DNA of 64,000 nt, from positions 682,001-746,000 of the forward strand of contig NZ_VRMG01000005.1 in the NCBI RefSeq assembly GCF_008040105.1, written 5' to 3'. Shown in pieces: positions 5,237 to 38,949 of the stretch (positions within the stretch are counted from its first letter, which is position 1; each line of letters begins with the position of its first letter). The notes under the pieces were generated by a model. That model had not been told where the DNA came from. It did no database searches and saw only the letters and a list, made by a program, of their open reading frames with translations. The translations under genes and the position numbers were made by a program. This stretch comes from Lacisediminihabitans profunda (GTDB taxonomy: Bacteria; Actinomycetota; Actinomycetes; Actinomycetales; Microbacteriaceae).

Positions 5237-5313
5237 GGGTCCATGGCGCAGCCCGGTAGCGCACCTGCATGGCATGCAGGGGGTCAGGGGTTCGAATCCC
5301 CTTGGATCCACCA
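5237..5313 (+). tRNA. tRNA-Ala(GGC), CCA encoded
   Basis: A full cloverleaf is visible. The acceptor stem GGGTCCA/TGGATCC contains the G3:U70 wobble pair that marks alanine tRNAs. The D-arm GCGC/GCGC, the anticodon stem CCTGC/GCAGG with loop ATGGCAT (anticodon GGC) and the T-arm AGGGG/CCCCT with TTCGAAT follow in order. The discriminator A is at 5310 and CCA follows at 5311-5313. An identical 74-nt gene without CCA lies at 14245. A T/A-rich stretch containing TAGTAATCT near 5181-5189 is the likely promoter region. Confidence 0.95.
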
Positions 5314-6710: not shown

Positions 6711-9700
6711 ATGATTGGTTCATCAAGCTCTGGCGGCGCACGATCGCGGCGGTCGCGGCGGTGGCTGGCCGCAACGCTGGCCTGGGCGACTGGTGCGGTA
6801 CTCCTGCATCTCGTCGTGGTCGCGTCGCCCGTCGACGCGGCGAGCAGCTGCGGATCCGGGAATGCCGTCACCTGTGAGAACGCGCTCCCCGGCGACCCGG
6901 CGAGCGACTGGCAGGTGTCCGGGGCCGGAGACGCGACAATCCAGGGCTATGCGACCTCGATGAGCGTGAACATCGGCGAGACGGTGTCCTTCAAGATCAG
7001 CACTCCGGCGTCGAGTTATCACATCGACATCCTCCGGATGGGGTACTACCAGGGCAACGGCGCGCGCAAGGTTGCCGCCGGGCTGGTGCCCTCGGCGATC
7101 CTGCCGCAGAGTCAGCCCGCCTGCCTGACCGACTCCAGCACGGGTCTCATCGACTGCGGCAACTGGGCGGTGTCCGCGAGTTGGCCGGTCCCCGTAACCG
7201 CCGTATCGGGGGTGTATCTCGCTCACCTGGTGCGCAATGACACTGGTGGCAGCAGCCTCATCCCGTTCGTCGTTCGCAACGATGCGAGCACCAGCGACAT
7301 GGTCGTCCAGACCAGCGACGAGACCTGGCAGGCCTACAACACCTACGGCGGCAACAGCCTGTACAGCTGCACCGTAGCCTGCCCGCCGGGAAACCCTGGA
7401 GGGTACAAGGCGGCGTACAAGGTGTCCTACAACCGGCCGTTCCACACGTCGCTCGACGACTCCGGCCGAAGCTGGCTGATGTACACCGAGTACCCGATGA
7501 TTCGCTGGCTCGAGTCGAACGGATACGACCTCAGCTACATCAGCGGACTGGACGTCGCCACCCGCGGCGCTTTGCTGACCAACCACAAGACGTTCGTCTC
7601 CGTCGGCCACGACGAGTACTGGTCCGGGGACCAGCGTGCCAGCGTGGAGTCTGCGCGAGCCCACGGGGTGAACCTGGCCTTCTTCAGCGGCAACGAGGTG
7701 TTCTGGAAGACGCGCTGGGAGCCGAGCGCGGATAGCTCGAAGACTCCGGGACGCACGCTGGTGTCCTACAAGGAGACACACTTCGACGCGCCCACGGATC
7801 CGCAGGACCCGTCGACGTGGACCGGGACGTGGCGCGATCCCCGGTTCAGTCCACCCGCCGACGGAGGCCGGCCGGAGAATGCCCTCACCGGGCAGTTCTT
7901 CATCGTCAACGCGGGTACGACGGACATCCAGGTGCCGGCGCAGTACGCCTCGCTGCGGCTGTGGCGCAACACCGCAGTGGCTGGGCTGAGCGCCGGACAG
8001 AGCCTGACCCTCGGGTCCGGACTGGGAACGCTGGGCTACGAATGGGACGAGGACGCCGACAACGGCGCCCGCCCGGCCGGCCTGTTCGACCTGTCCGCGA
8101 CTACCTCGACCAACGCGGAGGTATTCGTCGACTACGGCACGAACGTTGCGTCGGGAAGAACAGCGACTCACCATCTCACCGAGTACCGCGCCGCGAGCGG
8201 TGCCCTGGTCTTCGGTGCCGGAACCGTCCAATGGTCATGGGGTCTGGACAACGCGACGACCGGTCGCGCGACTGACAAGAACATGCAGCAGGCAACCGTG
8301 AATCTGTTGGCGGACATGGGCGACCAACCCGCCTCTCTCGCCTCGAACCTGATTGCGGCGGCGGCTTCGACGGACACCACCCCGCCGACATCGAGGGTGA
8401 CGTCTCCCGCGGCCGGGACGATTCTCGCGGACGGCGCGGCGACGACGATCTCCGGCACCGCGACCGACGCCGGGGGCGGGACCGTGGCCGGCGTGGAGGT
8501 TTCCACCGACGGGGGAAAGACCTGGCATCCGGCGAAGGGAACAACGAGCTGGAACTACTCGTGGATTGCCCACGGCAGCCCGATCGCGACAATCCTCGTG
8601 CGGGCCACCGACGACAGCGGCAACCTCGAGACGCCGGGCCCTTCGACCACGGTCAACGTGTCCTGTCCGTGCTCGATCTGGGGGACAGCCGTGACGCCCG
8701 GCGGGGTCGACTCCAAGGATGGCAGTGCGATCGAGGTCGGCGTGAAGTTCACGACCGACACGTTCGGCACGGTCAGCGGCATCCGATTCTTCAAGGCGAC
8801 CACGAACACCGGCACCCACGTCGGGAACCTCTGGACCTCGACCGGGCAACTCCTCGGCCGGGTGACGTTCACCGGTGAGACCGCCTCGGGATGGCAGCAA
8901 GCCCAGTTCGCGCAACCCATCGCGATCAGTCCCGGGGCGACCTATGTGGTGTCCTACTTCGCTCCCGTGGGTCACTACTCGCAGGACGAGGCCTACATGT
9001 ACAACGCTCCTGCCCCGGAGCCAGACGGCAACGACAGCCTCGACAGTCCGCCGCTGCACGCGTTGCGCTCGACCGCGTCGAATCCGAACGGTGTGTACGC
9101 GTACACCAGCTCGACGACCTTCCCCAGCAATTCCTTCAACGGCGAGAACTACTGGGTCGACCTCGCATTCTCACCCTCGCCCGCGCCGGGCCAAGTCACC
9201 AATGTGGTTGCCACCGCCGGCAACGCCTCGGCCGGGGTCAGCTGGAGTGCCCCGAGCACCGGGGCCACCACGACCTACACGATCACCCCGTACGTCGGGA
9301 CAACACCTCAGGCGGCGAGTACTGTCACCGGCAACCCTCCAGCCACCTCTACCGTCATCACCGGGCTGACCAACGGGACGCCATACACCTTCACGGTGAC
9401 TGCGTCGAATCCCAATGGGTCAGGAGTGGCCTCGGCGGCATCGAATACCGTCACGCCGTCGGTCAGCGCCTCGTCCGTTCAGAACGGAGGCTTCGAATCG
9501 GGAATCACGTTGTGGACCACGGGCGGCGTACCACCGTCGAGTGCCAGCACCGCGACGGTGCACTCCGGCACCGGATCGGCCCTGCTCGGTGTCGTCTCCG
9601 GCACCGAACCCGGCGGCGACGGTTGGCTCAGCCAGACCGTCTCCGTGCCGAGCGGCACCAGTTCATTGAGCTTCTGGTACTGGCCGGCCACCACCGACAC

Positions 9701-12700
9701 ACTGTGTTCGGGGTCGGGGTGTGTCTTTGACTGGCAAGAGGCGCAGATCCGCACCACCGCTGGCGCCACGTTGGCGTCGGTGTTCAAGGGCAACAGCAAT
9801 GCCCGAACGTGGACGCAGGTCACTTTCAACACCAGCGCCTACGCCGGGCAGACCGTCGTCCTCTGGTTCAACGTCCACGAGGACGCGTCCAGCCCGCCGG
9901 ACGACACCTGGATGTACCTCGACGACGTTGCCCTGACCGGATCGCAGCCGACGGCACCGGCAGCGCCGACAGGGGTCAACGCGGCCGCAGGCAACGGCCA
10001 GGCCACCGTGTCGTGGACCGCGCCCGCGTCCGGCGGCGCGCCCATAACTTCGTACACCATCACGCCATACGCGGGAACGACAGCGCTCACGCCGACGACC
10101 ATCGCCGGCTCCCCGCCGGCGACGTCGACCACCATCACGGGGCTGACCAACGGCACCGCGTACACCTTCAGGGTGTCGGCCACGAACAGCGTGGGAACCG
10201 GCCCGGCCTCGACTGCGTCCAACAGCGTCACACCGAGCGCGCCGACACCGCCAGGCGCGCCCACGTCCGTGACCGCAATCGGTGGCAACGGTCAGGCCAC
10301 GGTGTCGTGGACCGCTCCCGGCGACGGCGGCTCACCGATCACCGCCTACACGATCACCCCCTATGTCGGCACAACCGCGCAGCCGTCGACCACCATCACC
10401 GGGACGCCGCCCGCGACGACGCTGACGGTCACCGGCCTGACCAATGGGACCACCTACACGTTCACCGTTACCGCGACAAACTCTCTCGGTTCCGGCACTC
10501 CGTCATCACCATCGAACGCGATAACGCCGTCGCCGGCGCCCCCAGTGGCGTTCGTGCAGCAAGCCGTCGGTCACGGCAGCGGGACGACGAGGTCTGTCAC
10601 GCTCGCCTCTGCCGTTGCCTCCGGCGATCGGATCGTCGTCGAGGTCAGCATCTGGGCAGCCAATCATCCGACCGCGTCCTCGGTGACCGACTCGGCGGGA
10701 AACACCTACACGAGCGTGCTGCGGTTCACCGGTCCCGACGGCGATGAGGAGAGCATCTGGACGGCGCCGATCACCGCCGGCGGCGGAACCAAACCGACCA
10801 TCACCGCGACCAGCACGTCGAGCGCAGACATGGGGGTGGCGGTGCTCGAATACTCGGGTCTGTCCACGACAGCCGGCATCGGTGCTGTCGACGTCTCCAA
10901 GGGTGCCACCGGCACGACGACGGCGGCCACGACCGTCTTCTCCGGAGCGGTACCGCCGACGACGGTCAACGGACTGGCCATCGGTTTCTACGCAGACTCC
11001 GGTTTCGGCAGCACCCCGACGCCATCGACGGGGTTCACCAAGCGGGCTTCGATCGCGGGTGCGGCGGACATGGACCTCCTTGTCGAAGACCAGGTCGTCT
11101 CCGCCGGGTCAACCCCCAATGCCGGCGCCGGCACGTCAGCGAACACGATCTGGTTGATGTCGACTGTGGTCTTCGCGAGCGCGGCGGGAACAGCACCGCT
11201 CACGCCCGGGGCTCCCACCGGAGTGACTGCCACGGCCGGCGACAGCCGGGCGACCGTTTCCTGGACCGCGCCAAGCAACGGCGGCTCGCCACTCAGCGCC
11301 TACACCGTGACCCCCTACATCGGCACCACTGCGCAGCCCGCGACAACGGTGACCGGAGCGCCGCCCGCCACGACGGCGACCATCGTCGGACTCACCAACG
11401 GGACGGCGTACACCTTCACCGTCTCCGCGACCAACTCGGTCGGAACGGGACCGGCTTCCGCGCCTTCCAACAGCGTGACCCCGGCCAGCACCTCCCAGGG
11501 CCAATGGGGCGCACTGCAGACCTGGCCGCTCGTCGCGATCACCAACGTCGCGTTGAAGACCGGGAAGTACCTCATCTTCGACGGATGGCAGAGCCCCACT
11601 CCGACGATGGTGTGGGATCCCGTCACCAACACTTTCACCACCGTCAACGCGCCGGCCAGCATCTTCTGTTCCGGCGTATCTCACCTACCCGATGGACGGG
11701 TGCTGGTCGCCGGCGGATTCGGCAGCCTCGGGATCACGACGACCTCGATCTTCGACCCGGCCACAACCGCCTGGACCACGGCGGCGAACATGAATCTTCC
11801 GCGCTGGTACCCATCGTTGCTTCAATTGTCCGATGGCCGGTACGTGGCCATCAGCGGGAATTCGACCGACGCAAGCCACTGGGCGGACACTCCCGAGGTC
11901 TACGACCCGGCCACCAACAAGTGGACGTTGCTCAGCGGGGTCAACACATCGCAGATCCATGAGGAGGAGTATCCCTTCTCGTACCTGATGCTCAACGGAA
12001 AGGTCTTCGCGATGGGACCGTCGGAGGACGTCTCCTACGTCCTCGACGTGAACGCACAGAACTGGACTCCCGTCGGGGCGAGCGGCGTCGTGAACGGGTC
12101 CGCCGTGATGTACCGCCCTGGCAAGATCCTCTACAGCGGCGGAGCACCCAGCGTCCTCACGACGACGGCGGCGTCCGCGACCACGGCCGTCATCGATACC
12201 TCCGCCGCCACGCCTGGTTGGCGCCAGACGGCCTCGATGAACACCGCGCGCGTCTATCACACCCTGACCATGCTCGCCGATGGCAAGGTTCTCGCGGTCG
12301 GCGGTGAACAGAGCAGCGATCAGACCAACGTGACGTCCGGCGTACTGTCGACCGAGATCTGGGATCCCTCGACCGAGACCTGGACCACCGGCGCGTCGAT
12401 GACCGCGGCCCGCAACTACCACTCGACGGCCGTCCTGATGCCCGACGGCCGGGTTCTGGTGGCCGGGGGCGGACACGAGGACTCGCTCACCAATCCCGGC
12501 CAGTACTCGGCGCAGGTCTACACCCCGTCCTACCTCCTCAGCGGTGCGAGACCGACCATCGGATCAGCCACCACGTCGGCGTCCTACGGCGGCACCATCA
12601 CCGTCAACACCCCGGACGCGGCGAGCATCTCCGCCGTCAATCTGGTTTCCCTCGCTGCGGACACCCACCAGGCCGACATGGGGCAGCACTTCGTTCCGCT

Positions 12701-14090
12701 GACCTTCACCGCCGGAAGTTCCAGCCTGTCGGTCACCGCGCCCGGCTCTGCCGCGATCGCCCCGCCCGGGGACTACATGATGTTCATCGTGAACGGCAGC
12801 GGCGTGCCGTCGGTGGCATCGATGGTGCACATCAGCTCCGCGGCCGCCACCGCACCGGGCGCCCCGACCGGAGTGGCCGCGACGGCCGGGGTCGGGCAGG
12901 CGACGGTTTCGTGGGCGGCACCGGTGGACGGTGGCTCCCCGATCACCTCCTACACGGTGACCCCCTACGTCGGCGGGACGGCGCAGACCCCGACGACGAT
13001 CAACGGGGCACCGCCGGCCACGACAGCCACCGTCACGGGGCTCACGGCCGGGGTGACGTACACCTTCACCGTGGCAGCGACGAATGCGATCGGCACCGGG
13101 TCCCCCTCCGCGCCGTCGAACTCCGTCACGCCGACTGCGCTCACGGCGCCCGCCGCTCCGACCGGAGTCGCCGCAACCGCCGGAAATGCGCAGGCCACCG
13201 TGACCTGGACGGCTCCAAGCAATGGCGGGTCGGCCATTACGAGTTACACGGTCACTCCGTATGTCGCGGGCATCGCCCAGCCCGCGACCACGGTGAGCGG
13301 GTCGCCGCCTGCGACATCGGCGACGATCACCGGGCTCACCAACGGCGTGACCTACACGTTCACCGTGTCTGCGACCAACGCGATTGGCACCGGTCCGGCG
13401 AGTGCGCCGTCGAACTCCGCGACCCCCAATTCCGCCACTTCCGCGCCGAAGTTCGTCCAAAGCATCACGGCACATGGGGCAAACTCCGCGACACGGACGG
13501 CTGTCCTCCCCGCTGCGATCACGACGGGCGATCGGATCATCGTCGAGGTGGGGGTCTGGTCCTCGACGAACGCAACGGCGAGCACGGTGACCGATTCGGC
13601 CGGGAACACCTACACCGAAGTCCTGCACTTCACCGCCTCGGATGCGACCGAGGAGAGCGTGTGGACCGCGCCCATCACCGCGGGTGGCGGAACGAAGCCG
13701 ACCATCACCGTCACGACCTCGAAGGCCGCGGATATCGGGATCGCGGCGCTCGAATACTCCGGGCTGTCCGCGGTGTCCGGCGCGGGGGCGGTCGACGTCT
13801 CCAAGACGGCGACCGGAACCGCCGCGGCGGCCGGCACGGTGGTCTCCGGCGCGACTCCGGCGGCGACCACCGCGGGCCTCGCGCTCGGCTTCTATGCCGA
13901 TTCCGGGTTCGGGGTGACGCCGGTCGCCAGTTCTGGCTTCACGCCTCGCGCGACGATCAGCAACGTGACCGACATGGACCTGCTCGTCGAGGACCAGCCG
14001 ACCGCGGTGGGCGCCACGCCGAGCGCGGGTGCGACCACGAAGGCTGGCACGATCTGGCTGATGTCGACAGTGGTGTTCAAGGGGGCCTGA
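6711..14090 (+). CDS. Giant secreted multidomain copper radical oxidase with N,N-dimethylformamidase-like domain
   Basis: 2459 residues. Order by rough residue positions: basic N-terminus and signal peptide (1-43); N,N-dimethylformamidase beta-subunit-like domain (50-545, with VGHDEYWS); Ig-like (557-650); DUF4082 (652-822); FN3 (824-915); jelly-roll-like domain (921-1080); two FN3 (1082-1277); unknown module (1278-1490); FN3 (1497-1594); galactose/glyoxal-oxidase beta-propeller with C-terminal E-set domain (1597-2043); two FN3 (2047-2242); second copy of the unknown module (2244-2459). The oxidase ligands align with galactose oxidase: Cys1653 (FCSG) and Tyr1700 (RWYPS) for the thioether cofactor, Tyr1903-His1904 (NYHS), and His1986 (DTHQAD). 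Predicted to oxidise alcohol, aldehyde or sugar substrates outside the cell; the substrate is unknown. No sortase motif is seen. Confidence 0.9.
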   Translation: MIGSSSSGGARSRRSRRWLAATLAWATGAVLLHLVVVASPVDAASSCGSGNAVTCENALPGDPASDWQVSGAGDATIQGYATSMSVNIGETVSFKISTPASSYHIDILRMGYYQGNGARKVAAGLVPSAILPQSQPACLTDSSTGLIDCGNWAVSASWPVPVTAVSGVYLAHLVRNDTGGSSLIPFVVRNDASTSDMVVQTSDETWQAYNTYGGNSLYSCTVACPPGNPGGYKAAYKVSYNRPFHTSLDDSGRSWLMYTEYPMIRWLESNGYDLSYISGLDVATRGALLTNHKTFVSVGHDEYWSGDQRASVESARAHGVNLAFFSGNEVFWKTRWEPSADSSKTPGRTLVSYKETHFDAPTDPQDPSTWTGTWRDPRFSPPADGGRPENALTGQFFIVNAGTTDIQVPAQYASLRLWRNTAVAGLSAGQSLTLGSGLGTLGYEWDEDADNGARPAGLFDLSATTSTNAEVFVDYGTNVASGRTATHHLTEYRAASGALVFGAGTVQWSWGLDNATTGRATDKNMQQATVNLLADMGDQPASLASNLIAAAASTDTTPPTSRVTSPAAGTILADGAATTISGTATDAGGGTVAGVEVSTDGGKTWHPAKGTTSWNYSWIAHGSPIATILVRATDDSGNLETPGPSTTVNVSCPCSIWGTAVTPGGVDSKDGSAIEVGVKFTTDTFGTVSGIRFFKATTNTGTHVGNLWTSTGQLLGRVTFTGETASGWQQAQFAQPIAISPGATYVVSYFAPVGHYSQDEAYMYNAPAPEPDGNDSLDSPPLHALRSTASNPNGVYAYTSSTTFPSNSFNGENYWVDLAFSPSPAPGQVTNVVATAGNASAGVSWSAPSTGATTTYTITPYVGTTPQAASTVTGNPPATSTVITGLTNGTPYTFTVTASNPNGSGVASAASNTVTPSVSASSVQNGGFESGITLWTTGGVPPSSASTATVHSGTGSALLGVVSGTEPGGDGWLSQTVSVPSGTSSLSFWYWPATTDTLCSGSGCVFDWQEAQIRTTAGATLASVFKGNSNARTWTQVTFNTSAYAGQTVVLWFNVHEDASSPPDDTWMYLDDVALTGSQPTAPAAPTGVNAAAGNGQATVSWTAPASGGAPITSYTITPYAGTTALTPTTIAGSPPATSTTITGLTNGTAYTFRVSATNSVGTGPASTASNSVTPSAPTPPGAPTSVTAIGGNGQATVSWTAPGDGGSPITAYTITPYVGTTAQPSTTITGTPPATTLTVTGLTNGTTYTFTVTATNSLGSGTPSSPSNAITPSPAPPVAFVQQAVGHGSGTTRSVTLASAVASGDRIVVEVSIWAANHPTASSVTDSAGNTYTSVLRFTGPDGDEESIWTAPITAGGGTKPTITATSTSSADMGVAVLEYSGLSTTAGIGAVDVSKGATGTTTAATTVFSGAVPPTTVNGLAIGFYADSGFGSTPTPSTGFTKRASIAGAADMDLLVEDQVVSAGSTPNAGAGTSANTIWLMSTVVFASAAGTAPLTPGAPTGVTATAGDSRATVSWTAPSNGGSPLSAYTVTPYIGTTAQPATTVTGAPPATTATIVGLTNGTAYTFTVSATNSVGTGPASAPSNSVTPASTSQGQWGALQTWPLVAITNVALKTGKYLIFDGWQSPTPTMVWDPVTNTFTTVNAPASIFCSGVSHLPDGRVLVAGGFGSLGITTTSIFDPATTAWTTAANMNLPRWYPSLLQLSDGRYVAISGNSTDASHWADTPEVYDPATNKWTLLSGVNTSQIHEEEYPFSYLMLNGKVFAMGPSEDVSYVLDVNAQNWTPVGASGVVNGSAVMYRPGKILYSGGAPSVLTTTAASATTAVIDTSAATPGWRQTASMNTARVYHTLTMLADGKVLAVGGEQSSDQTNVTSGVLSTEIWDPSTETWTTGASMTAARNYHSTAVLMPDGRVLVAGGGHEDSLTNPGQYSAQVYTPSYLLSGARPTIGSATTSASYGGTITVNTPDAASISAVNLVSLAADTHQADMGQHFVPLTFTAGSSSLSVTAPGSAAIAPPGDYMMFIVNGSGVPSVASMVHISSAAATAPGAPTGVAATAGVGQATVSWAAPVDGGSPITSYTVTPYVGGTAQTPTTINGAPPATTATVTGLTAGVTYTFTVAATNAIGTGSPSAPSNSVTPTALTAPAAPTGVAATAGNAQATVTWTAPSNGGSAITSYTVTPYVAGIAQPATTVSGSPPATSATITGLTNGVTYTFTVSATNAIGTGPASAPSNSATPNSATSAPKFVQSITAHGANSATRTAVLPAAITTGDRIIVEVGVWSSTNATASTVTDSAGNTYTEVLHFTASDATEESVWTAPITAGGGTKPTITVTTSKAADIGIAALEYSGLSAVSGAGAVDVSKTATGTAAAAGTVVSGATPAATTAGLALGFYADSGFGVTPVASSGFTPRATISNVTDMDLLVEDQPTAVGATPSAGATTKAGTIWLMSTVVFKGA
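10540..11180 (+). repeat. First copy of a ~210-residue module in the giant oxidase
   Basis: This module starts with FVQQAVGHGSG and ends with TIWLMSTVVF. It is repeated at 13440-14087 with the same landmarks: GDRIVVEV or GDRIIVEV, VTDSAGNTYT, WTAPITAGGGTKPTIT, LEYSGLS, GFYADSGFG and DMDLLVEDQ. I do not know a named family for it; a beta-sandwich adhesion or binding role is a guess. Confidence 0.8.
13440..14087 (+). repeat. Second copy of the ~210-residue module
   Basis: It forms the extreme C-terminus of the giant oxidase and matches the copy at 10540-11180 at both protein and DNA level, roughly three quarters identical by eye. Intragenic recombination between the two could remove the oxidase domain. 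Confidence 0.8.
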
Positions 14091-14244: not shown

Positions 14245-14318
14245 GGGTCCATGGCGCAGCCCGGTAGCGCACCTGCATGGCATGCAGGGGGTCAGGGGTT
14301 CGAATCCCCTTGGATCCA
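14245..14318 (+). tRNA. tRNA-Ala(GGC), CCA not encoded
   Basis: Identical over 74 nt to the tRNA at 5237, with anticodon GGC and the G3:U70 pair. Here the discriminator A is followed by CAG rather than CCA, so the tail must be added after transcription. It is followed at once by a strong terminator. The two copies flank the giant oxidase gene in the same orientation. Confidence 0.95.
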
Positions 14319-19879: not shown

Positions 19880-21373
19880 ATGACCGACATCAGCACGCGA
19901 TTCCTCGACTACGCGCCGGCACCCGAGTCGACCTCGATCCTGCACCTTCGCGATTCCTATGGGCTCTTCATCAACGGCGAATTCACCTCCGGCCACGGCG
20001 AGACCTTCCAGACCATCTCGCCCGCCACGGAGAAGAAGATCGCCGACATCGCCTCCGCCGACGCGCAGGACGTGGATGCCGCGGTCGCCGCCGCGCGTCG
20101 CGCCTACGAGCGCACCTGGTCGAAGCTCTCCGGAGCGGACCGCGGCAAATACCTCTTCCGCATCGCCAGGCTCGTGCAGGAGCGCGCCCGCGAGCTCGCG
20201 GTCGCCGAGAGCCTCGACAACGGCAAGCCGATCAAGGAGACCAGGGACGTCGACATCCCGCTCGTCGCCGCGTGGTTCTTCTACTACGCCGGCTGGGCCG
20301 ACAAGCTCGACTACGCGGGCCTCGGGCCCAACCCGGCATCGCTCGGTGTCGCCGCCCAGGTGATCCCGTGGAACTTTCCGCTGCTCATGCTCGCCTGGAA
20401 GATCGCCCCGGCGCTCGCCGCGGGCAACACCGTCGTGATCAAGCCGGCCGAGACGACGCCGCTCACCGCTCTGCTCTTTGCGGAGATCCTGCAGCAGGCC
20501 GACCTGCCGGCCGGAGTCGTGAACATCATCACGGGAGCCGGGGACACCGGTGCGCTGCTGGTGAACCACCCCGACGTCAACAAGGTGGCGTTCACCGGCT
20601 CGACCGCCGTCGGCCGCGCAATCGCCCGCTCCACGGCGGGCAGCGGCAAGAAGCTCACCCTCGAGCTCGGTGGCAAGGCGGCCAACATCGTCTTCGACGA
20701 CGCGCCCATCGACCAGGCCATCGAGGGCATCGTCAACGGCATCTTCTTCAACCAGGGGCACGTCTGCTGCGCTGGTTCTCGCCTGCTGGTGCAGGAGAAC
20801 GTGCACGACGAGGTGGTCGACAGGCTCAAGCAGCGGCTGACCACGCTCCGGCTCGGCGACCCGCTCGACAAGAACACCGACATCGGCGCCATCAATTCGC
20901 GCGAACAGCTCGACCGCATCCGAGAACTGTCGAACGTGGGAGACGAGGAGGGGGCCACGCGCTGGACCGCCCCCTGCGAGATTCCGGCGAAGGGCTTCTG
21001 GTTCGCCCCGACGATCTTCACCGGGGTGTCGACGAGCCACCGGATCGCGCGCGAGGAGGTCTTCGGGCCGGTGCTCAGCGTGCTGACCTTCCGCACCCCG
21101 GTCGAGGCGATCGCCAAGGCCAACAACACCCCGTATGGCCTCTCCGCCGGCATCTGGAGCTCCAACGGCAGCCGCGTGCTCGCGGTGGCCGACAAGCTCC
21201 GTGCGGGCGTCGTGTGGGCCAACACGTTCAACCAGTTCGACCCGTCCAGTCCCTTCGGCGGCTACAAGGAGTCCGGCTACGGCCGCGAGGGCGGCCGTCA
21301 CGGGCTCGCCGCCTACCTCGAGTCCGCCGGCTGGGGCAGTCAGACCACGATCGCCAAGGGAGCCACCGCATGA
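19880..21373 (+). CDS. Aldehyde dehydrogenase of the deoxyribose operon
   Basis: A 497-residue NAD(P)-dependent aldehyde dehydrogenase that probably oxidises the acetaldehyde released by DeoC. Seen are the cofactor-fold segment VIPWNFPLLMLAWKIAPALA, the FTGSTAVGR loop, the catalytic Glu in LTLELGGKAANIVF and the catalytic Cys296 in GHVCCAGSR. The end has FGGYKESGYGREGG, the usual C-terminal motif. Length is normal for the family. The stop overlaps the start of the next gene (ATGA), so the two are coupled. Confidence 0.93.
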   Translation: MTDISTRFLDYAPAPESTSILHLRDSYGLFINGEFTSGHGETFQTISPATEKKIADIASADAQDVDAAVAAARRAYERTWSKLSGADRGKYLFRIARLVQERARELAVAESLDNGKPIKETRDVDIPLVAAWFFYYAGWADKLDYAGLGPNPASLGVAAQVIPWNFPLLMLAWKIAPALAAGNTVVIKPAETTPLTALLFAEILQQADLPAGVVNIITGAGDTGALLVNHPDVNKVAFTGSTAVGRAIARSTAGSGKKLTLELGGKAANIVFDDAPIDQAIEGIVNGIFFNQGHVCCAGSRLLVQENVHDEVVDRLKQRLTTLRLGDPLDKNTDIGAINSREQLDRIRELSNVGDEEGATRWTAPCEIPAKGFWFAPTIFTGVSTSHRIAREEVFGPVLSVLTFRTPVEAIAKANNTPYGLSAGIWSSNGSRVLAVADKLRAGVVWANTFNQFDPSSPFGGYKESGYGREGGRHGLAAYLESAGWGSQTTIAKGATA

Positions 21374-22236
21374 GCCGGATCGCCGTCGCCAAGACGTACA
21401 AGCTCTACATCGGGGGCAAGTTCCCCCGCAGCGAGTCCGGGCGAGTCTACGAGGTCTCGACCGCCAAGGGCGCGTTCCTCGCCAACGCCGCCAAGGCATC
21501 CCGCAAGGATGCCCGGGATGCTGTGGTCGCCGCCCGCGCAGCGGTCTCCGGCTGGTCCGGCGCGTCCGGGTACAACCGTGGCCAGGTGCTCTATCGCATC
21601 GCCGAACTGCTCGAGGGCCGTCGGGCCCAGTTCGTGCAGGAGATCAGCCAGGGCGAGGGCGTCTCCTCTGCGGTCGCCGAGAGGCAGGTGGATGCCGCGA
21701 TCGACGTGTGGGTCTGGTACGCCGGCTGGGCCGACAAGTACGTGCAGGTGGCCGGCAACGGAAACCCGGTGAGCGGTCCCTACTTCAACATCTCCACGCC
21801 CGAGCCGACCGGGGTGGTGGCGATCATCGCCCCGCAGGAGTCCAGCCTGCTCGGCCTGGTGAGCGTCGTCGCCCCGGCGCTCGTGAGCGGAAACACCGTG
21901 GTGGTGGTCGCGAGCGAGGCGGCGCCACTCAGCGCCATCAGCCTCGCCGAGGTGCTCGCGACGAGCGACGTGCCCGGCGGTGTCGTCAACGTGCTGACGG
22001 GATCGGCGGCCGAGATCGCGCCGTGGCTCGCCAGCCACGCCGACGTCAACGCGATCGACCTCGCCGGGGCCGGCGACCTCGCCGGCGACGCCACCTGGGT
22101 CGACCTGCAGATCGCCGCCGCCGAGACGCTCAAGCGCGTGCTTCCGCCCGAGGTGGGCGTCCCCGCCCCCTCGGTGGAACGAGTGACCTTCTTCACCGAG
22201 ACCAAGACGGTCTGGCACACCAAGGGGCTCCTCTAG
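21370..22236 (+). CDS. Half-length aldehyde dehydrogenase-like protein without catalytic Cys
   Basis: A 288-residue paralogue of the preceding enzyme that holds only the N-terminal cofactor-binding half. It has YKLYIGGKFPRSESGRVYEV, the WYAGWADKYVQV segment, and a TGVVAIIAPQESSLLGLVS region where the intact enzyme has the WNFP motif. The LELGGK and catalytic Cys regions are missing. The frame ends cleanly with a structured tail (VTFFTETKTVWHTKGLL), so it looks like a stable shortened family member rather than a fresh truncation. It may form a complex with, or scaffold, the full-length enzyme. Repeat element A follows. Confidence 0.82.
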   Translation: MSRIAVAKTYKLYIGGKFPRSESGRVYEVSTAKGAFLANAAKASRKDARDAVVAARAAVSGWSGASGYNRGQVLYRIAELLEGRRAQFVQEISQGEGVSSAVAERQVDAAIDVWVWYAGWADKYVQVAGNGNPVSGPYFNISTPEPTGVVAIIAPQESSLLGLVSVVAPALVSGNTVVVVASEAAPLSAISLAEVLATSDVPGGVVNVLTGSAAEIAPWLASHADVNAIDLAGAGDLAGDATWVDLQIAAAETLKRVLPPEVGVPAPSVERVTFFTETKTVWHTKGLL

Positions 22237-22312
22237 CGGGACTACCGATCGCCGTGTGGGGCCTGTGGCGATGGTATTCACAGAGCCATGCCGGGAGGGT
22301 GTTTCGGCTTCA

Positions 22313-22748
22313 CCGCCACTGTGCGGCGCTCCCTTGCCCTGGCACGCGTTGTGCGGGACGTCCTGGCGACTTACGGGTGTCCATCCCGCAGACTCCAGTT
22401 GTGCAGGACGGGTTCTGCAGGACGGGTTAAGCAGGACGGCTCGGGCGTCCACGTGTGCCCACCCCGCAGACTCCAGTTGTGCAGGACGGGTTGTGCAGGA
22501 CGGCTCGGGCCGACGGCGAGGACAAACGGCGAGGACAATAGGTGCAGAACCGACGGGAGCTCCTGCAGACCGGGATCCTTCGGGTTGCCACACCCCTGCC
22601 GTGTCCTGCACAAGCTGTCCTGAACAACTGGAGTCTGTGGGGTGGGCACCACGCCTCCCGGGGCCGTCCTGCAGAACACGGCCCGACCGACGCGGGCGGC
22701 ACAACTACGCGGCACAGCTGGAGGGCCGAAAAGGTCCAGCCTCCGGCG
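22313..22748 (+). repeat. Repeat element A, 436 bp, with long inverted arms
   Basis: Non-coding element whose reverse complement recurs at 36953-37389 with the same order of parts and about 85 percent identity by eye. It holds two tandem left arms (near 22379 and 22455) and one right arm. The left arm 22455-22487 pairs with the right arm 22617-22649 at 31 of 33 positions, and a second block TTGTGCAGGAC pairs just inside. The unit TGCAGGACG is scattered throughout. It lies between two genes and points the same way as both. Confidence 0.85.
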
Positions 22749-22813
22749 TCGCGGCGACCGGCATGCGGCGGAGGGCGTTCGGGGTGGCCGCGAGGGACCC
22801 GGCGGCGACGTCC

Positions 22814-22819
22814 TAGGCT
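22814..22819 (+). promoter_or_regulatory. TAGGCT -10 box before the CAP-domain gene
   Basis: TAGGCT ends 6 nt before the ATG at 22826, giving a leaderless mRNA. Confidence 0.6.
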
Positions 22820-22825
22820 TGTCGG

Positions 22826-23635
22826 ATGCGGAAGCCGAGAATCAGCACCGGAGCACGCGGCCTCGCGGTCGTGCTGCTCACGGCGACGCTCGCGCTCGTG
22901 GGGGTCGGCGCGGTCGGTGTGCAGTCCGCATCAGCGAGCGAGGCCGACACCATCGGGTCTCTCGTGAACGAGGCCCGCGCGGCCAACGGGCAGGCCGGGC
23001 TGCTGCGCAATGCCGCGATGGATGCTGTGGCCCTGACGTGGGCCGAGCAGATGGCGGCGACCAACAGCATGGTCCACAATCCGGACTACAGCGCGCAGAT
23101 CCCGGTCGGATGGACGCGGGCCGGCGAGAACATCGCGATGGGCCAGCCGACACCGGGCGCGATGCACACGGCGTGGATGAACTCTCCGGGCCACCGGGCG
23201 AACATCCTCGGCGATTTCACGGACATCGGCATCGCCTTCATCACCGTGAACGGCGTGACCTGGGGCGTCGAGGACTTCGGCAAGTATCCGGGGCACGTCG
23301 GCCCGCTCCCGCCGGCCGCCGCGGCTCCGGCCCCCGCGCCGGCCGCTCCGGCCCCGAGGGCCGCCGCCCCCGTCCCCGCAGCGGTGCCCGCCGCGTCTGC
23401 GCCGGTCCAACCGAGTGCTGAGTCGAGTGCCGCACCGAGTGCCGCACCGAGTGCCGCACCGAGTGCCACACCGGTCGCCCGGTCGCACGGGCCGCTCGCG
23501 GCGAAGTCGACCGTCTCATCCACCCCATTCCCCTTCGGCTATCTCCTGGGCGGCGTGCTCGTGGTGCTCGGCGTCGCCGGCGGCATCTACGGCCAGGTGC
23601 TGCGCCGCCGCGGACGGCGACCTCCGGGAAACTGA
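22826..23635 (+). CDS. Secreted CAP-domain (SCP/PR1-like) protein with C-terminal membrane anchor
   Basis: A 269-residue exported protein. Residues 1-38 are a signal peptide (LLTATLALVGVGAVGVQSASAS). A bacterial CAP domain follows at about 40-155, with the motifs GENIAMGQ, AWMNSPGHRANILG (the HRxN-type signature) and a final W-V-DFG strand. A long linker of Ala and Pro follows, including about four copies of a PSAA unit encoded by 12-bp repeats (23424-23472). The last 30 residues are a membrane helix and a basic tail, which looks like a stop-transfer anchor without an LPxTG motif. The CAP domain then sits at the outer surface; its activity is unknown. Confidence 0.88.
   Translation: MRKPRISTGARGLAVVLLTATLALVGVGAVGVQSASASEADTIGSLVNEARAANGQAGLLRNAAMDAVALTWAEQMAATNSMVHNPDYSAQIPVGWTRAGENIAMGQPTPGAMHTAWMNSPGHRANILGDFTDIGIAFITVNGVTWGVEDFGKYPGHVGPLPPAAAAPAPAPAAPAPRAAAPVPAAVPAASAPVQPSAESSAAPSAAPSAAPSATPVARSHGPLAAKSTVSSTPFPFGYLLGGVLVVLGVAGGIYGQVLRRRGRRPPGN
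23424..23472 (+). repeat. 12-bp tandem repeats in the CAP protein linker
   Basis: GAGTGCCGCACC-type units are repeated about four times and encode the Ser-Ala-Ala-Pro linker. They are likely to vary in number between strains. Confidence 0.75.
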
Positions 23636-36952: not shown

Positions 36953-37389
36953 CGCCGGAGGCTGGACCGTCTCGGCCCTCTGGTTGTGCCGCCTAGTGGT
37001 GCCGCCCGCGTCGGTCGGGCCGTGTTCTGCGGGACGGGCCCCGGAGGTGTGGGTGCCCACCCCACAGACTCTGGTTGTGCAGGACAGCTTGTGCAGGACA
37101 GCTCGGGCAGGGTGTGGCGACCCGAAGGGTTCCGGTCTGCAGGACGCTCCCGTGGGTTCTGCACCTTGCGTCATCGCTGTCCGCCCGAGGCGTCCTGCGC
37201 AACCCGTCCTGCCGTCCTGCAGAACCCGTCCTGCACAACTGGAGTCTGTGGGGTGGGCACCCGTCGACGCCCGAGTCGTCCTGCACAACGCGTCCTGCAC
37301 AACTGGAGTCTCGGGGTGGGCACCGGTGGGACGCCCGAGCCGTCCTGCACAACGCGTGCCAGGGGCAAGGGAGTGCCGCACAGTGGCGG
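36953..37389 (-). repeat. Repeat element B, 437 bp, inverted copy of element A
   Basis: The reverse complement of this stretch matches element A (22313-22748) along its whole length. On the plus strand, 37053-37085 pairs with 37228-37260 at 31 of 33 positions, and a further right-arm copy lies near 37290-37322. It sits between two minus-strand genes and has the same orientation as them, just as element A is co-oriented with its plus-strand neighbours. Confidence 0.85.
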
Positions 37390-37461
37390 AGACACAAGCC
37401 CCACCGCCAACGGAGCCCGCCCACCCATCAGCCGGCTAACCAGCGTCCCTAGGCAGTGCGG

Positions 37462-38949
37462 CTAGGCGCGTTGGATGGGGATGCTCGCGGTGCCGGGAAA
37501 GCCGGTGCCGCGGGTGGGAATGAAGGCTCCGATGATAACGCCGGTGAGGGCGACGCCGGCGCCCATCGCGAACACGAGCTGGAACGCCTGGGTGGTGGGG
37601 ATGCCGATGCCCCCATCGAGCACGAGGTGGGACGACAGAATCACTCCGACGAGGGTGGCGGCGACCGTGGAGCCGAGCGTGCGCATCACCGAGTTGAGGC
37701 CGTTCGCCGCGGCCGTCTCGTTCGGCGGCACCGCCCGCATGATGAGGGTCGGCATGGCCGCGTAGGCGAATCCGACCCCGACGCCGACGATCGCCGAGAT
37801 GAGGATCACGTGCCAGATCGCCCCGTGCAGCCAGACGGCCAGGGCGAAGGCCGCCGTGATGATGGCGCCGCCCAGGATCAGGCTCGTGCGGGGGCCCCGG
37901 GCGTTCGACAGTCGAGCGGCCACCGGCGACAGGAAGAACATGATGAGGCCGAGCGGCATGAGGCAGAGGCTCGACACGAGCAGCGACTGGCCGAGTCCGA
38001 CACCGGTGGTGGTGGGCGCCTCGAGCAACACCGGGAGCGCCGCCGTGGTGATGAAGAAGGCGAAACCGACGGAGATGGAGGCGAGGTTGGTGAGCAGCAC
38101 CGGCCGCCGGGCCGCGACGCGAAGGTCGATGAGCGGGTCGGTCATCCGCAACTCCACCGCACCCCAGATCAGGAGCACCGCGATGCCACCGATCAGCAGT
38201 GACAGCGTGACGGGGCTCGTCCAGCCCCACTCGTTGCCCTTCGACACGGCCAGCAGGATGCCCACGAGCCCCACAGCGAAGCCGACGGCCCCCACGAAGT
38301 CGAACCGGCCGCCCGCGCGGAGCGTGCTGACCGGCACGATCGTGCCGACGAGCACGATCGCGACGACGGCGAGCAGGAGCGCCAGCCAGAACAGGTAGTG
38401 GTAGTCGAAATTCTGGGCGATCACCGCCGCGACGGGAAGGCCCACCGCGCCGCCGACGCCCAGGGTGGCGCTGACAAGCGCGACGGCGCCGCCGAGGTTC
38501 TTGGGGTGGATCACATCGCGCAGGATGCTGATCCCGAGCGAGATCACGCCGAGCCCGACGCCCTGGAGCACTCGGCCGACGATCATCGGGATGAGGGTGT
38601 TGGACAACGCGCTGACGATCGAGCCGCCGGCCATGATGATCAGCAACACCAGCACGATGCGGCGCTTGCCGTACATGTCGCCGAGCCGACCGCTGATCGG
38701 CGTGGAGATCGCTGCCGCGAGCAGCGTGGAGGTGAGCACCCAGGTCGAGTCGGCCGCAGTGGTGTCGAGGAGGGCGGGCAGGTGCGGGATGATCGGCGTC
38801 ACGAGCGTCTGCATGAAGGCCGCGATCAGGCCGGTGAGCGCGAGGGTCGTGGTGATGGCCCGGTCGCTCGGTCGCCGGCTCAGCCGCTTGCGCTCGGCTG
38901 CGCTGAGGACGCCGCCGCTCTGGTCGTTGGTGTCTCCGGCGTCTGTCAC
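37462..38949 (-). CDS. MFS drug exporter, DHA2 (EmrB/QacA) family
   Basis: A 495-residue protein with about fourteen membrane helices. Family signatures are seen: LPALLDTTAADSTWVLTSTL (motif D1), GRLGDMYGKRRIVLVLL (motif A) and VGRVLQGVGLGVISLGISIL (motif B/C region). The family exports drugs or metabolites by proton antiport; the substrate is not predictable. The GTG start lies 6 nt after TAGGGT, so the mRNA should be leaderless. Repeat element B begins 73 nt after the stop. Confidence 0.92.
   Translation of the reverse strand: MTDAGDTNDQSGGVLSAAERKRLSRRPSDRAITTTLALTGLIAAFMQTLVTPIIPHLPALLDTTAADSTWVLTSTLLAAAISTPISGRLGDMYGKRRIVLVLLIIMAGGSIVSALSNTLIPMIVGRVLQGVGLGVISLGISILRDVIHPKNLGGAVALVSATLGVGGAVGLPVAAVIAQNFDYHYLFWLALLLAVVAIVLVGTIVPVSTLRAGGRFDFVGAVGFAVGLVGILLAVSKGNEWGWTSPVTLSLLIGGIAVLLIWGAVELRMTDPLIDLRVAARRPVLLTNLASISVGFAFFITTAALPVLLEAPTTTGVGLGQSLLVSSLCLMPLGLIMFFLSPVAARLSNARGPRTSLILGGAIITAAFALAVWLHGAIWHVILISAIVGVGVGFAYAAMPTLIMRAVPPNETAAANGLNSVMRTLGSTVAATLVGVILSSHLVLDGGIGIPTTQAFQLVFAMGAGVALTGVIIGAFIPTRGTGFPGTASIPIQRA

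Follow-up and report, generated by a model that had tools for sequence, protein, structure and literature searches.

What is the 436-bp structured repeat at positions 22313-22748 of the 64,000-nucleotide stretch of Lacisediminihabitans profunda DNA analysed here (the window)? An earlier note on this DNA called it copy A of an element of unknown nature and proposed either a transcribed structured RNA or 3' UTR element or a non-autonomous mobile element. IS481-type inverted repeats, transposase remnants, a CTAG target, dispersed copies and empty sites all point to the second proposal, whereas the pairing of the repeat's arms gives little to the first. Because a gene tail and an array of GTTGTGCAGGAC palindromes lie between IS481 ends, we regard copy A as very probably a decayed copy of a non-autonomous, cargo-carrying element derived from an insertion sequence (IS) of the IS481 family.

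How would such an element be built and moved? In the orientation of the IS, it would open with the IS 5' end (~160 bp with an inverted repeat and the beginning of the transposase gene), continue with the captured 3' tail of an amidohydrolase gene and then the GTTGTGCAGGAC palindrome array, and close with the IS 3' end (the last ~115 bp, encoding the transposase C-terminus and containing an inverted repeat). Both ends would be recognised by an IS481 transposase supplied in trans, and insertion at CTAG would duplicate NCTAGN.

Copies of the repeat and the anatomy of copy A

A genome-wide search with the 436-bp query revealed further copies across the organism's own genome, where at least 150 pieces match (4,016,580 bases in 171 contigs; 40 scored of 77 candidate places). 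Among 59 other genomes, with at most 11 candidates scored in each, matches occurred in only two, both from the same genus and 28-44 bases long. Around copies and orphan ends, 43 regions of about 6 kb were fetched, and 41 of them contain the array. The two others are L090, a decayed IS with no array, and L092, which was rejected as an element end since it looks like a chance match of the end pattern. By our count, 37 of the 41 array loci are element copies or fragments, including three (L081, L096 and L100) that show neither IS match nor end; L085, L087, L088 and L089 have no IS ends and were taken as arrays without an element. Given these four and the three loci without an IS match, the array is not confined to the element. 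In the copy L119 (own genome C76:1-5800), the cargo has GGATAGC several times in tandem.

The tandem left arms and the right arm described for copy A are present beyond chance, and the block 22455-22487 does match 22617-22649 at 31 of 33 positions. The motif TGCAGGACG is likewise repeated above chance; TTGTGCAGGACG, at up to two mismatches, occurs 26 times in the window (nine in copy A, ten in copy B), compared with a mean of 5.8 and a maximum of 12 in 100 shuffles. The two tandem units are 78 nt each with 78% identity, and the main inverted arms (Table 1) are 47 nt long and 91% complementary. A second pairing, between 22376-22423 and 22603-22650, extends over 48 nt at 85% complementarity.

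Table 1. Positions in the window of copy A, its flanking genes and copy B
Feature	Position	Strand	Remark
Upstream host gene, aldehyde dehydrogenase family (PF00171)	21370..22236	+	left CTAG ends in this gene's TAG stop
CTAG, left border and IS481-type target overlapping the stop codon	22233..22236	.	border placed from other copies
IS481 3'-end remnant	22245..22308	-	positions 986-1049 of G012's 1101-bp IS, 3' end of the transposase gene
Stretch of the earlier note: hairpin array and part of the captured gene tail	22313..22748	+	
First tandem left unit	22344..22421	+	
Second tandem left unit	22422..22499	+	
Main inverted repeat, left arm	22455..22501	+	
Centre, conserved among copies	22502..22602	+	
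Main inverted repeat, right arm	22603..22649	+	
Captured 3' tail of host amidohydrolase gene	22719..22796	-	homologous to roughly the final 86 bp of L085:1551-3017
CTAG close to or at the right border, without an end inverted repeat	22813..22816	.	probable border; may instead be part of the next gene's promoter
Downstream host gene, CAP / cysteine-rich secretory protein domain (PF00188)	22826..23635	+	
Copy B, array part	36953..37392	-	82% identity to copy A
Copy B, terminal inverted repeat	37438..37460	-	4 mismatches in 23; coordinates converted from locus L094

The 436 bp lie where they had been placed but form only the inside of a larger element, which extends from 22233 to about 22797-22825. 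On the left it reaches the CTAG stop of the upstream gene and takes in the IS 3' remnant; on the right it runs to at least 22796, through the captured gene tail. The coordinates of this tail were converted from locus L093, with its inner edge set by eye at the CTGG that replaces the gene's CTAG stop. The alignment of copy A to the amidohydrolase tail continues via 22561-22718 into the array downstream of that gene. That there is no transposase frame, as had been stated, is correct for copy A, where no gene was called between the flanking genes and the IS match is restricted to IS ends; the ends of the family, however, are remnants of a transposase gene. Copy A has no recognisable terminal inverted repeat, and no NCTAGN duplication was seen there. 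The CAP-domain gene starts about 10 bases after a CCTAGG (window 22797-22825), and so copy A may supply or touch its promoter. In copy B the terminal inverted repeat lies one base from the CTAG stop of a minus-strand gene (37462-38949).

Ends, target site and parent of the element

Full copies are bounded by the inverted repeats CTAGnTGTACTGCCCAGGGACGTTGGTT and CTAGnTGTACTGCCCAGGCAGGTTGGTT, first read by eye, which are the two ends of an IS481-family IS. The end pattern, at up to three mismatches, has 55 matches compared to 11 for a reversed control. When up to six mismatches of 23 are allowed, both ends are found at 11 of the 41 array loci, one end at 17 and none at 13, copy A among the last. 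At least one IS481 terminal inverted repeat is therefore present at 28 of 41 loci, and whole IS481 copies are bounded by the same ends. The 11 two-ended copies measure 320-674 bp between their outer ends.

CTAG adjoins the left end in 17 of 18 cases and the right end in 15 of 21. In the two-ended copies the CTAG core agrees in eight of 11 and the outer bases in seven and three, with a full 6-bp duplication (ACTAGC) in a single copy, L115. Such imperfect duplications are expected of old copies, yet they are weaker evidence than fresh ones. Among detected ends that point towards a gene's 3' end, 13 of 16 on the left and 9 of 17 on the right have the stop codon placed exactly in CTAG. The window holds 28 CTAG sites (12 in stop codons, 14 between genes and two within genes), and the sequence flanking the array loci, with the array gap left out, holds 29 in stops, 34 in intergenic positions and 15 within genes. 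Since CTAG is rare inside genes and common in TAG stops, copies land at gene ends, often between convergent genes; since the duplicated CTAG provides both sides with a TAG, the proteins of the neighbouring genes can remain whole. Genes were called with our own simple script trained on 13 long window frames, on which the flanking-gene counts depend. IS5-type (YTAR) targeting, our first idea for CTAG, was dropped once the IS481 transposase had been found.

Where is the parent? A genus relative, G012, carries a 1101-bp element that runs from CTAG to CTAG with such ends. The 5' end of the repeat matches this IS at ~1-59 and ~125-158 (inverted repeat and transposase gene start) and its 3' end at ~986-1101 (gene end and inverted repeat). 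Homology to the G012 IS was found at 34 of the 43 loci and at the decayed IS L090; the match in L117 falls outside its array. The G012 transposase shifts frame after about residue 205, as judged by eye, and this 205-residue piece scores 149.5 bits against IS481 (NF033577), below the whole-protein cut-off of 224, with PF13011 above its cut-off; the whole transposase of a relative reaches 331 bits (cut-off 224).

Of 398 family genomes, 27 (own included) contain the end pattern; they represent 20 of 85 genera, and the reversed control gave none among the matches listed for these 398 genomes. Seven whole 1.1-kb relatives were read: five have a perfect 6-bp NCTAGN duplication, and each of the six from other genera has a frame of 339-351 residues, measured between stops, that is open. 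G214 is the only one of the seven with the end types of the element described here (CAGG 5', GGGAC 3'); G314 is the best match to the elements by summed score, but its end types are reversed. In the own assembly, the search for an intact transposase with matching ends yielded nothing but fragments and a second IS481 type with six differing positions in its end. With the genome in 171 contigs, an intact partner copy may be missing from the assembly. The second type, with the end TGTAGTTCCCGGGGACGTTGTGA, is represented by L150 and L155 (own genome C2 and C34). The right border of L097 resembles this end as well, which suggests a hybrid element. One further match to the end pattern, L124 (G009:C1:31479), has an inverted pair GGTGCCCAAGAAGGTTG / CAACCTTCTTGGGCACC before a coding-looking stretch and is probably something else.

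Are sites without the element found in relatives? Six joined junctions (those of L097, L100, L104, L114, L115 and L116) were used as queries against 13 genus genomes, and two of them gave empty sites. L116 lies at the junction of parB and the D-Ala-D-Ala ligase gene (genes by Pfam), and the element is absent there in 10 of 10 relatives examined (alignment by eye; G008 and G011 lie outside this set). Seven of these match across the junction in one piece and three have other spacers; in G001 and G002 hardly any sequence separates the two stops. The junction of L097 appears empty in G004, with a 39-bp spacer between convergent genes, but this case is less complete, as the left match covers 253 of 400 bases at 72%. 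For L104, L114 and L115, nine further regions were read and no joined junction was seen.

Several parts of this system have precedents. ISLxc2 of Leifsonia xyli has the inverted repeats TGTGTTTCTCAGGGACGTTGGT / TGTGCTGCTCAGGGACGTTGGT, and for ISLxc2 and ISLxx4, both of the IS481 family, a duplicated NCTAGN and transposase stop codons within the target are described (PMC2516522). On that description, the inverted repeats of ISLxc2 are close to the ends found here and NCTAGN is common to both, whereas ISLxc2 is 1,105 bp long with a transposase gene and the present element has the gene reduced to its ends and non-coding cargo between them. TnRErm46 / ISRe46 of Rhodococcus equi combines an IS481 element with passenger DNA, a CTAG target and a duplicated NCTAGN, and the target TAG supplies the stop codons of some target genes, leaving them uninterrupted (PMC6794481). 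The element here is similarly passenger DNA on IS481 with a CTAG target at stop codons. TnRErm46 differs in being 6.9 kb long, with its own transposase and passenger genes; here 11 two-ended copies of 0.32-0.67 kb lack a transposase, and the cargo is a gene tail with palindromes in dozens of diverged copies. TIMEs are bacterial MITEs of Tn3 origin with larger mosaic forms that include other modules (PMC4133298). Like TIMEs as portrayed there, the present elements are short, have the inverted repeats of a known transposon family, lack a transposase and show target duplication; unlike them, they have an IS481 origin and a cargo made of a captured native gene end and adjacent hairpins.

The captured gene tail and its palindromes

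Where does the cargo come from? One donor-like locus, L085, contains an amidohydrolase gene of 488 residues (PF07969), which is intact at this one place in the genome, with the array downstream of it. The end of this gene is matched at 25 of the 40 other array loci, some of the matches being short, down to 31 bases. At 17 of 40 loci, a single alignment starts in the L085 gene and extends beyond its stop, by 30 bases or more, into the array. In L110 this alignment of gene tail and array has 71% identity over 304 bases, and the gene tail of L106 alone has 87.5% over 112 bases; when the tails of the elements are translated, the amidohydrolase C-terminus is still visible. The gene is full-length in nine of 12 relatives (60-69% identity), and the array motif is absent downstream of it in all nine, so the gene is native. 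The GTTGTGCAGGAC array of the element would correspond to the one beside this gene, which it resembles, and the elements so appear to carry a copy of a native gene's end together with the adjacent array. We infer that capture proceeded from L085 into the element.

Could old IS481 copies instead each have been invaded by a palindrome array, with no single composite spreading? Arrays do exist independently of the IS. Yet IS 5' end, gene tail, array and IS 3' end follow one another in a constant order and orientation wherever visible, the array core has a mean identity of 88% (80-95%) between 31 aligned copies, and separate invasions would not bring the same amidohydrolase tail. We consider this history extremely improbable.

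REP and BIME palindromes are associated with RAYTs (REP-associated tyrosine transposases), and the repeat shares with them intergenic palindromes that form clusters and inverted pairs. If palindromes of this kind had been moved by a RAYT, the IS481 ends would be incidental. GTTGTGCAGGAC hairpins do occur without IS ends, both here and in relatives (G002, G009 and others), mostly intergenic and in inverted pairs. Set against this, a Y1 transposase (PF01797) was not found in the own genome assembly, while five of 14 control genomes have one, and the palindromes ride in an IS481-derived element. An IS481-type end is present at no fewer than 28 of the 41 array loci, and 25 of 40 share the gene tail, which argues that the elements moved as one composite unit. 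Movement by a RAYT thus seems to us very improbable.

How far do the palindromes extend beyond the cargo-carrying IS481 derivative? Relatives have the GTTGTGCAGGAC core too, in single hairpins and in small arrays. Exact TTGTGCAGGAC is present 203 times in the own genome, 14 times in G002 (RYN_86), ten times in G009 (RYN_67) and 0-4 times in the other ten genus genomes, where several single matches sit inside genes. A longer form, ACTCCAGTTGTGCAGGAC, at up to one mismatch, is present in three of 398 family genomes, own included. When genomes of 84,980 species were scanned for paired cores, with records of the own genome perhaps excluded, 15 stretches were found: seven in three Microbacteriaceae (RYN_67, RYN_86 and PS02066), one in another actinomycetotal genome and seven in unrelated taxa, the last perhaps by chance. 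Solitary GTTGTGCAGGAC hairpins outside called genes were seen in G002 (L032, L143-L145, L195-L197), in G009 (L198) and at L162 and L169, and an array with a period of about 28 bp was also present among the Microbacteriaceae/Actinomycetota hairpin loci, without recognised IS481 ends. A role of the 11-mer as a DNA uptake sequence was considered and dropped because it is concentrated in arrays here. Literature searches, judged by titles, gave nothing on TTGTGCAGGAC as a bacterial repeat and nothing relevant on REP in Microbacteriaceae.

In plants, Pack-TYPE transposons and Pack-MULEs spread a fragment of a host gene to many sites between transposon ends. The element described here also carries a host-gene fragment between transposon ends; it differs from these plant DNA transposons in being bacterial and IS481-derived, with a 3' gene tail only. 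Its parts, IS481 ends and a CTAG target at stop codons, are each known, and their combination was not found described in the literature searched, which mostly did not extend to subscription papers. The family would offer a clear case of an IS that picks up the end of a native gene and multiplies it.

Gene neighbourhood, folding and possible effects

Is the hairpin kept for what it does to transcripts? On this alternative, copy A is a selected structured RNA or bidirectional terminator that ends or protects flanking transcripts, and mobility is secondary. Each of the 41 array loci is 3' of one or more called genes: 23 are flanked by convergent and 18 by tandem genes, with none between divergent genes (the four arrays lacking IS ends are part of these counts). 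The remaining gene pairs of these stretches (n=187) comprise 20 convergent, 133 tandem and 34 divergent, so that convergent pairs are in excess at the arrays (p 1.5e-9) and divergent pairs in deficit (p 0.001). Measured against the other CTAG stops of these flanks, of which 11 are convergent and 19 tandem, the excess of convergent pairs at the arrays is not significant (p 0.15), and target choice may explain it. Convergent enrichment, significant against all gene pairs and not against CTAG stops, was accordingly rejected as proof of function. IS481 is itself among the families reported to be over-represented between convergent genes (PMC9208149). A literature search that combined MITE, convergent genes and terminator found nothing.

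RNA folding of 22300-22760 gives -260.7 kcal/mol compared with a mean of -212.4 in 100 shuffles (z -6.7), a strong predicted fold for copy A. In ten hand-picked hairpins from relatives, nine pair further outward by 2-9 pairs, with bases that differ between hairpins and match within them; one hairpin from relatives lies between divergent genes (L160), which speaks against the alternative. Is the fold maintained among copies? Of 39 array cores above the score limit, eight were left out as poor or shifted, and two more fell below the limit, leaving 31 aligned cores. Their arms pair at 90.0% (a value reached in 17 of 500 shuffles), against 89.4% with shuffled partners, and both bases have changed in six pairs compared to 3.3 in shuffles. 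Five pairing measures were each reached by 16-22 of 500 shuffles. One arm pair is C.A in 24 of 31 copies, 26 of 31 lack pairing at one position and 14 of 31 at a further two. Sliding the partners lowers pairing to 32-47%, which favours structure, but the structure was itself taken from one of the sequences. With covariation near shuffle level, it was discarded as proof of an RNA, and the excess of pairing is too weak for selection for RNA structure to be claimed. A selected RNA or terminator as the primary identity of the repeat is thus rather doubtful.

For the mobile, cargo-carrying IS481 derivative, the likeliest effect on flanking genes would be incidental: a new hairpin-rich 3' end, possibly with termination. 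The element may have a role at 3' ends or as a terminator. It seems unlikely to us that the element goes further, as a bacterial Pack-TYPE-like transposon whose CTAG targeting puts a gene-tail and hairpin "3'-end module" at dozens of stop codons to serve as a mobile bidirectional terminator or transcript stabiliser; if it did, convergent neighbours would gain separate new hairpin-ended 3' UTRs. As many insertions coincide exactly with stop codons and do not disrupt the proteins, the family provides natural before/after experiments on adding a hairpin-rich 3' end to a gene.

In an Rfam search of the window, no family was detected at copy A and the gathering score was reached by two tRNAs only. 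These two matches (5237-5310 and 14245-14318) have equal scores, lie on the same strand and flank a very long gene (6816-14090).
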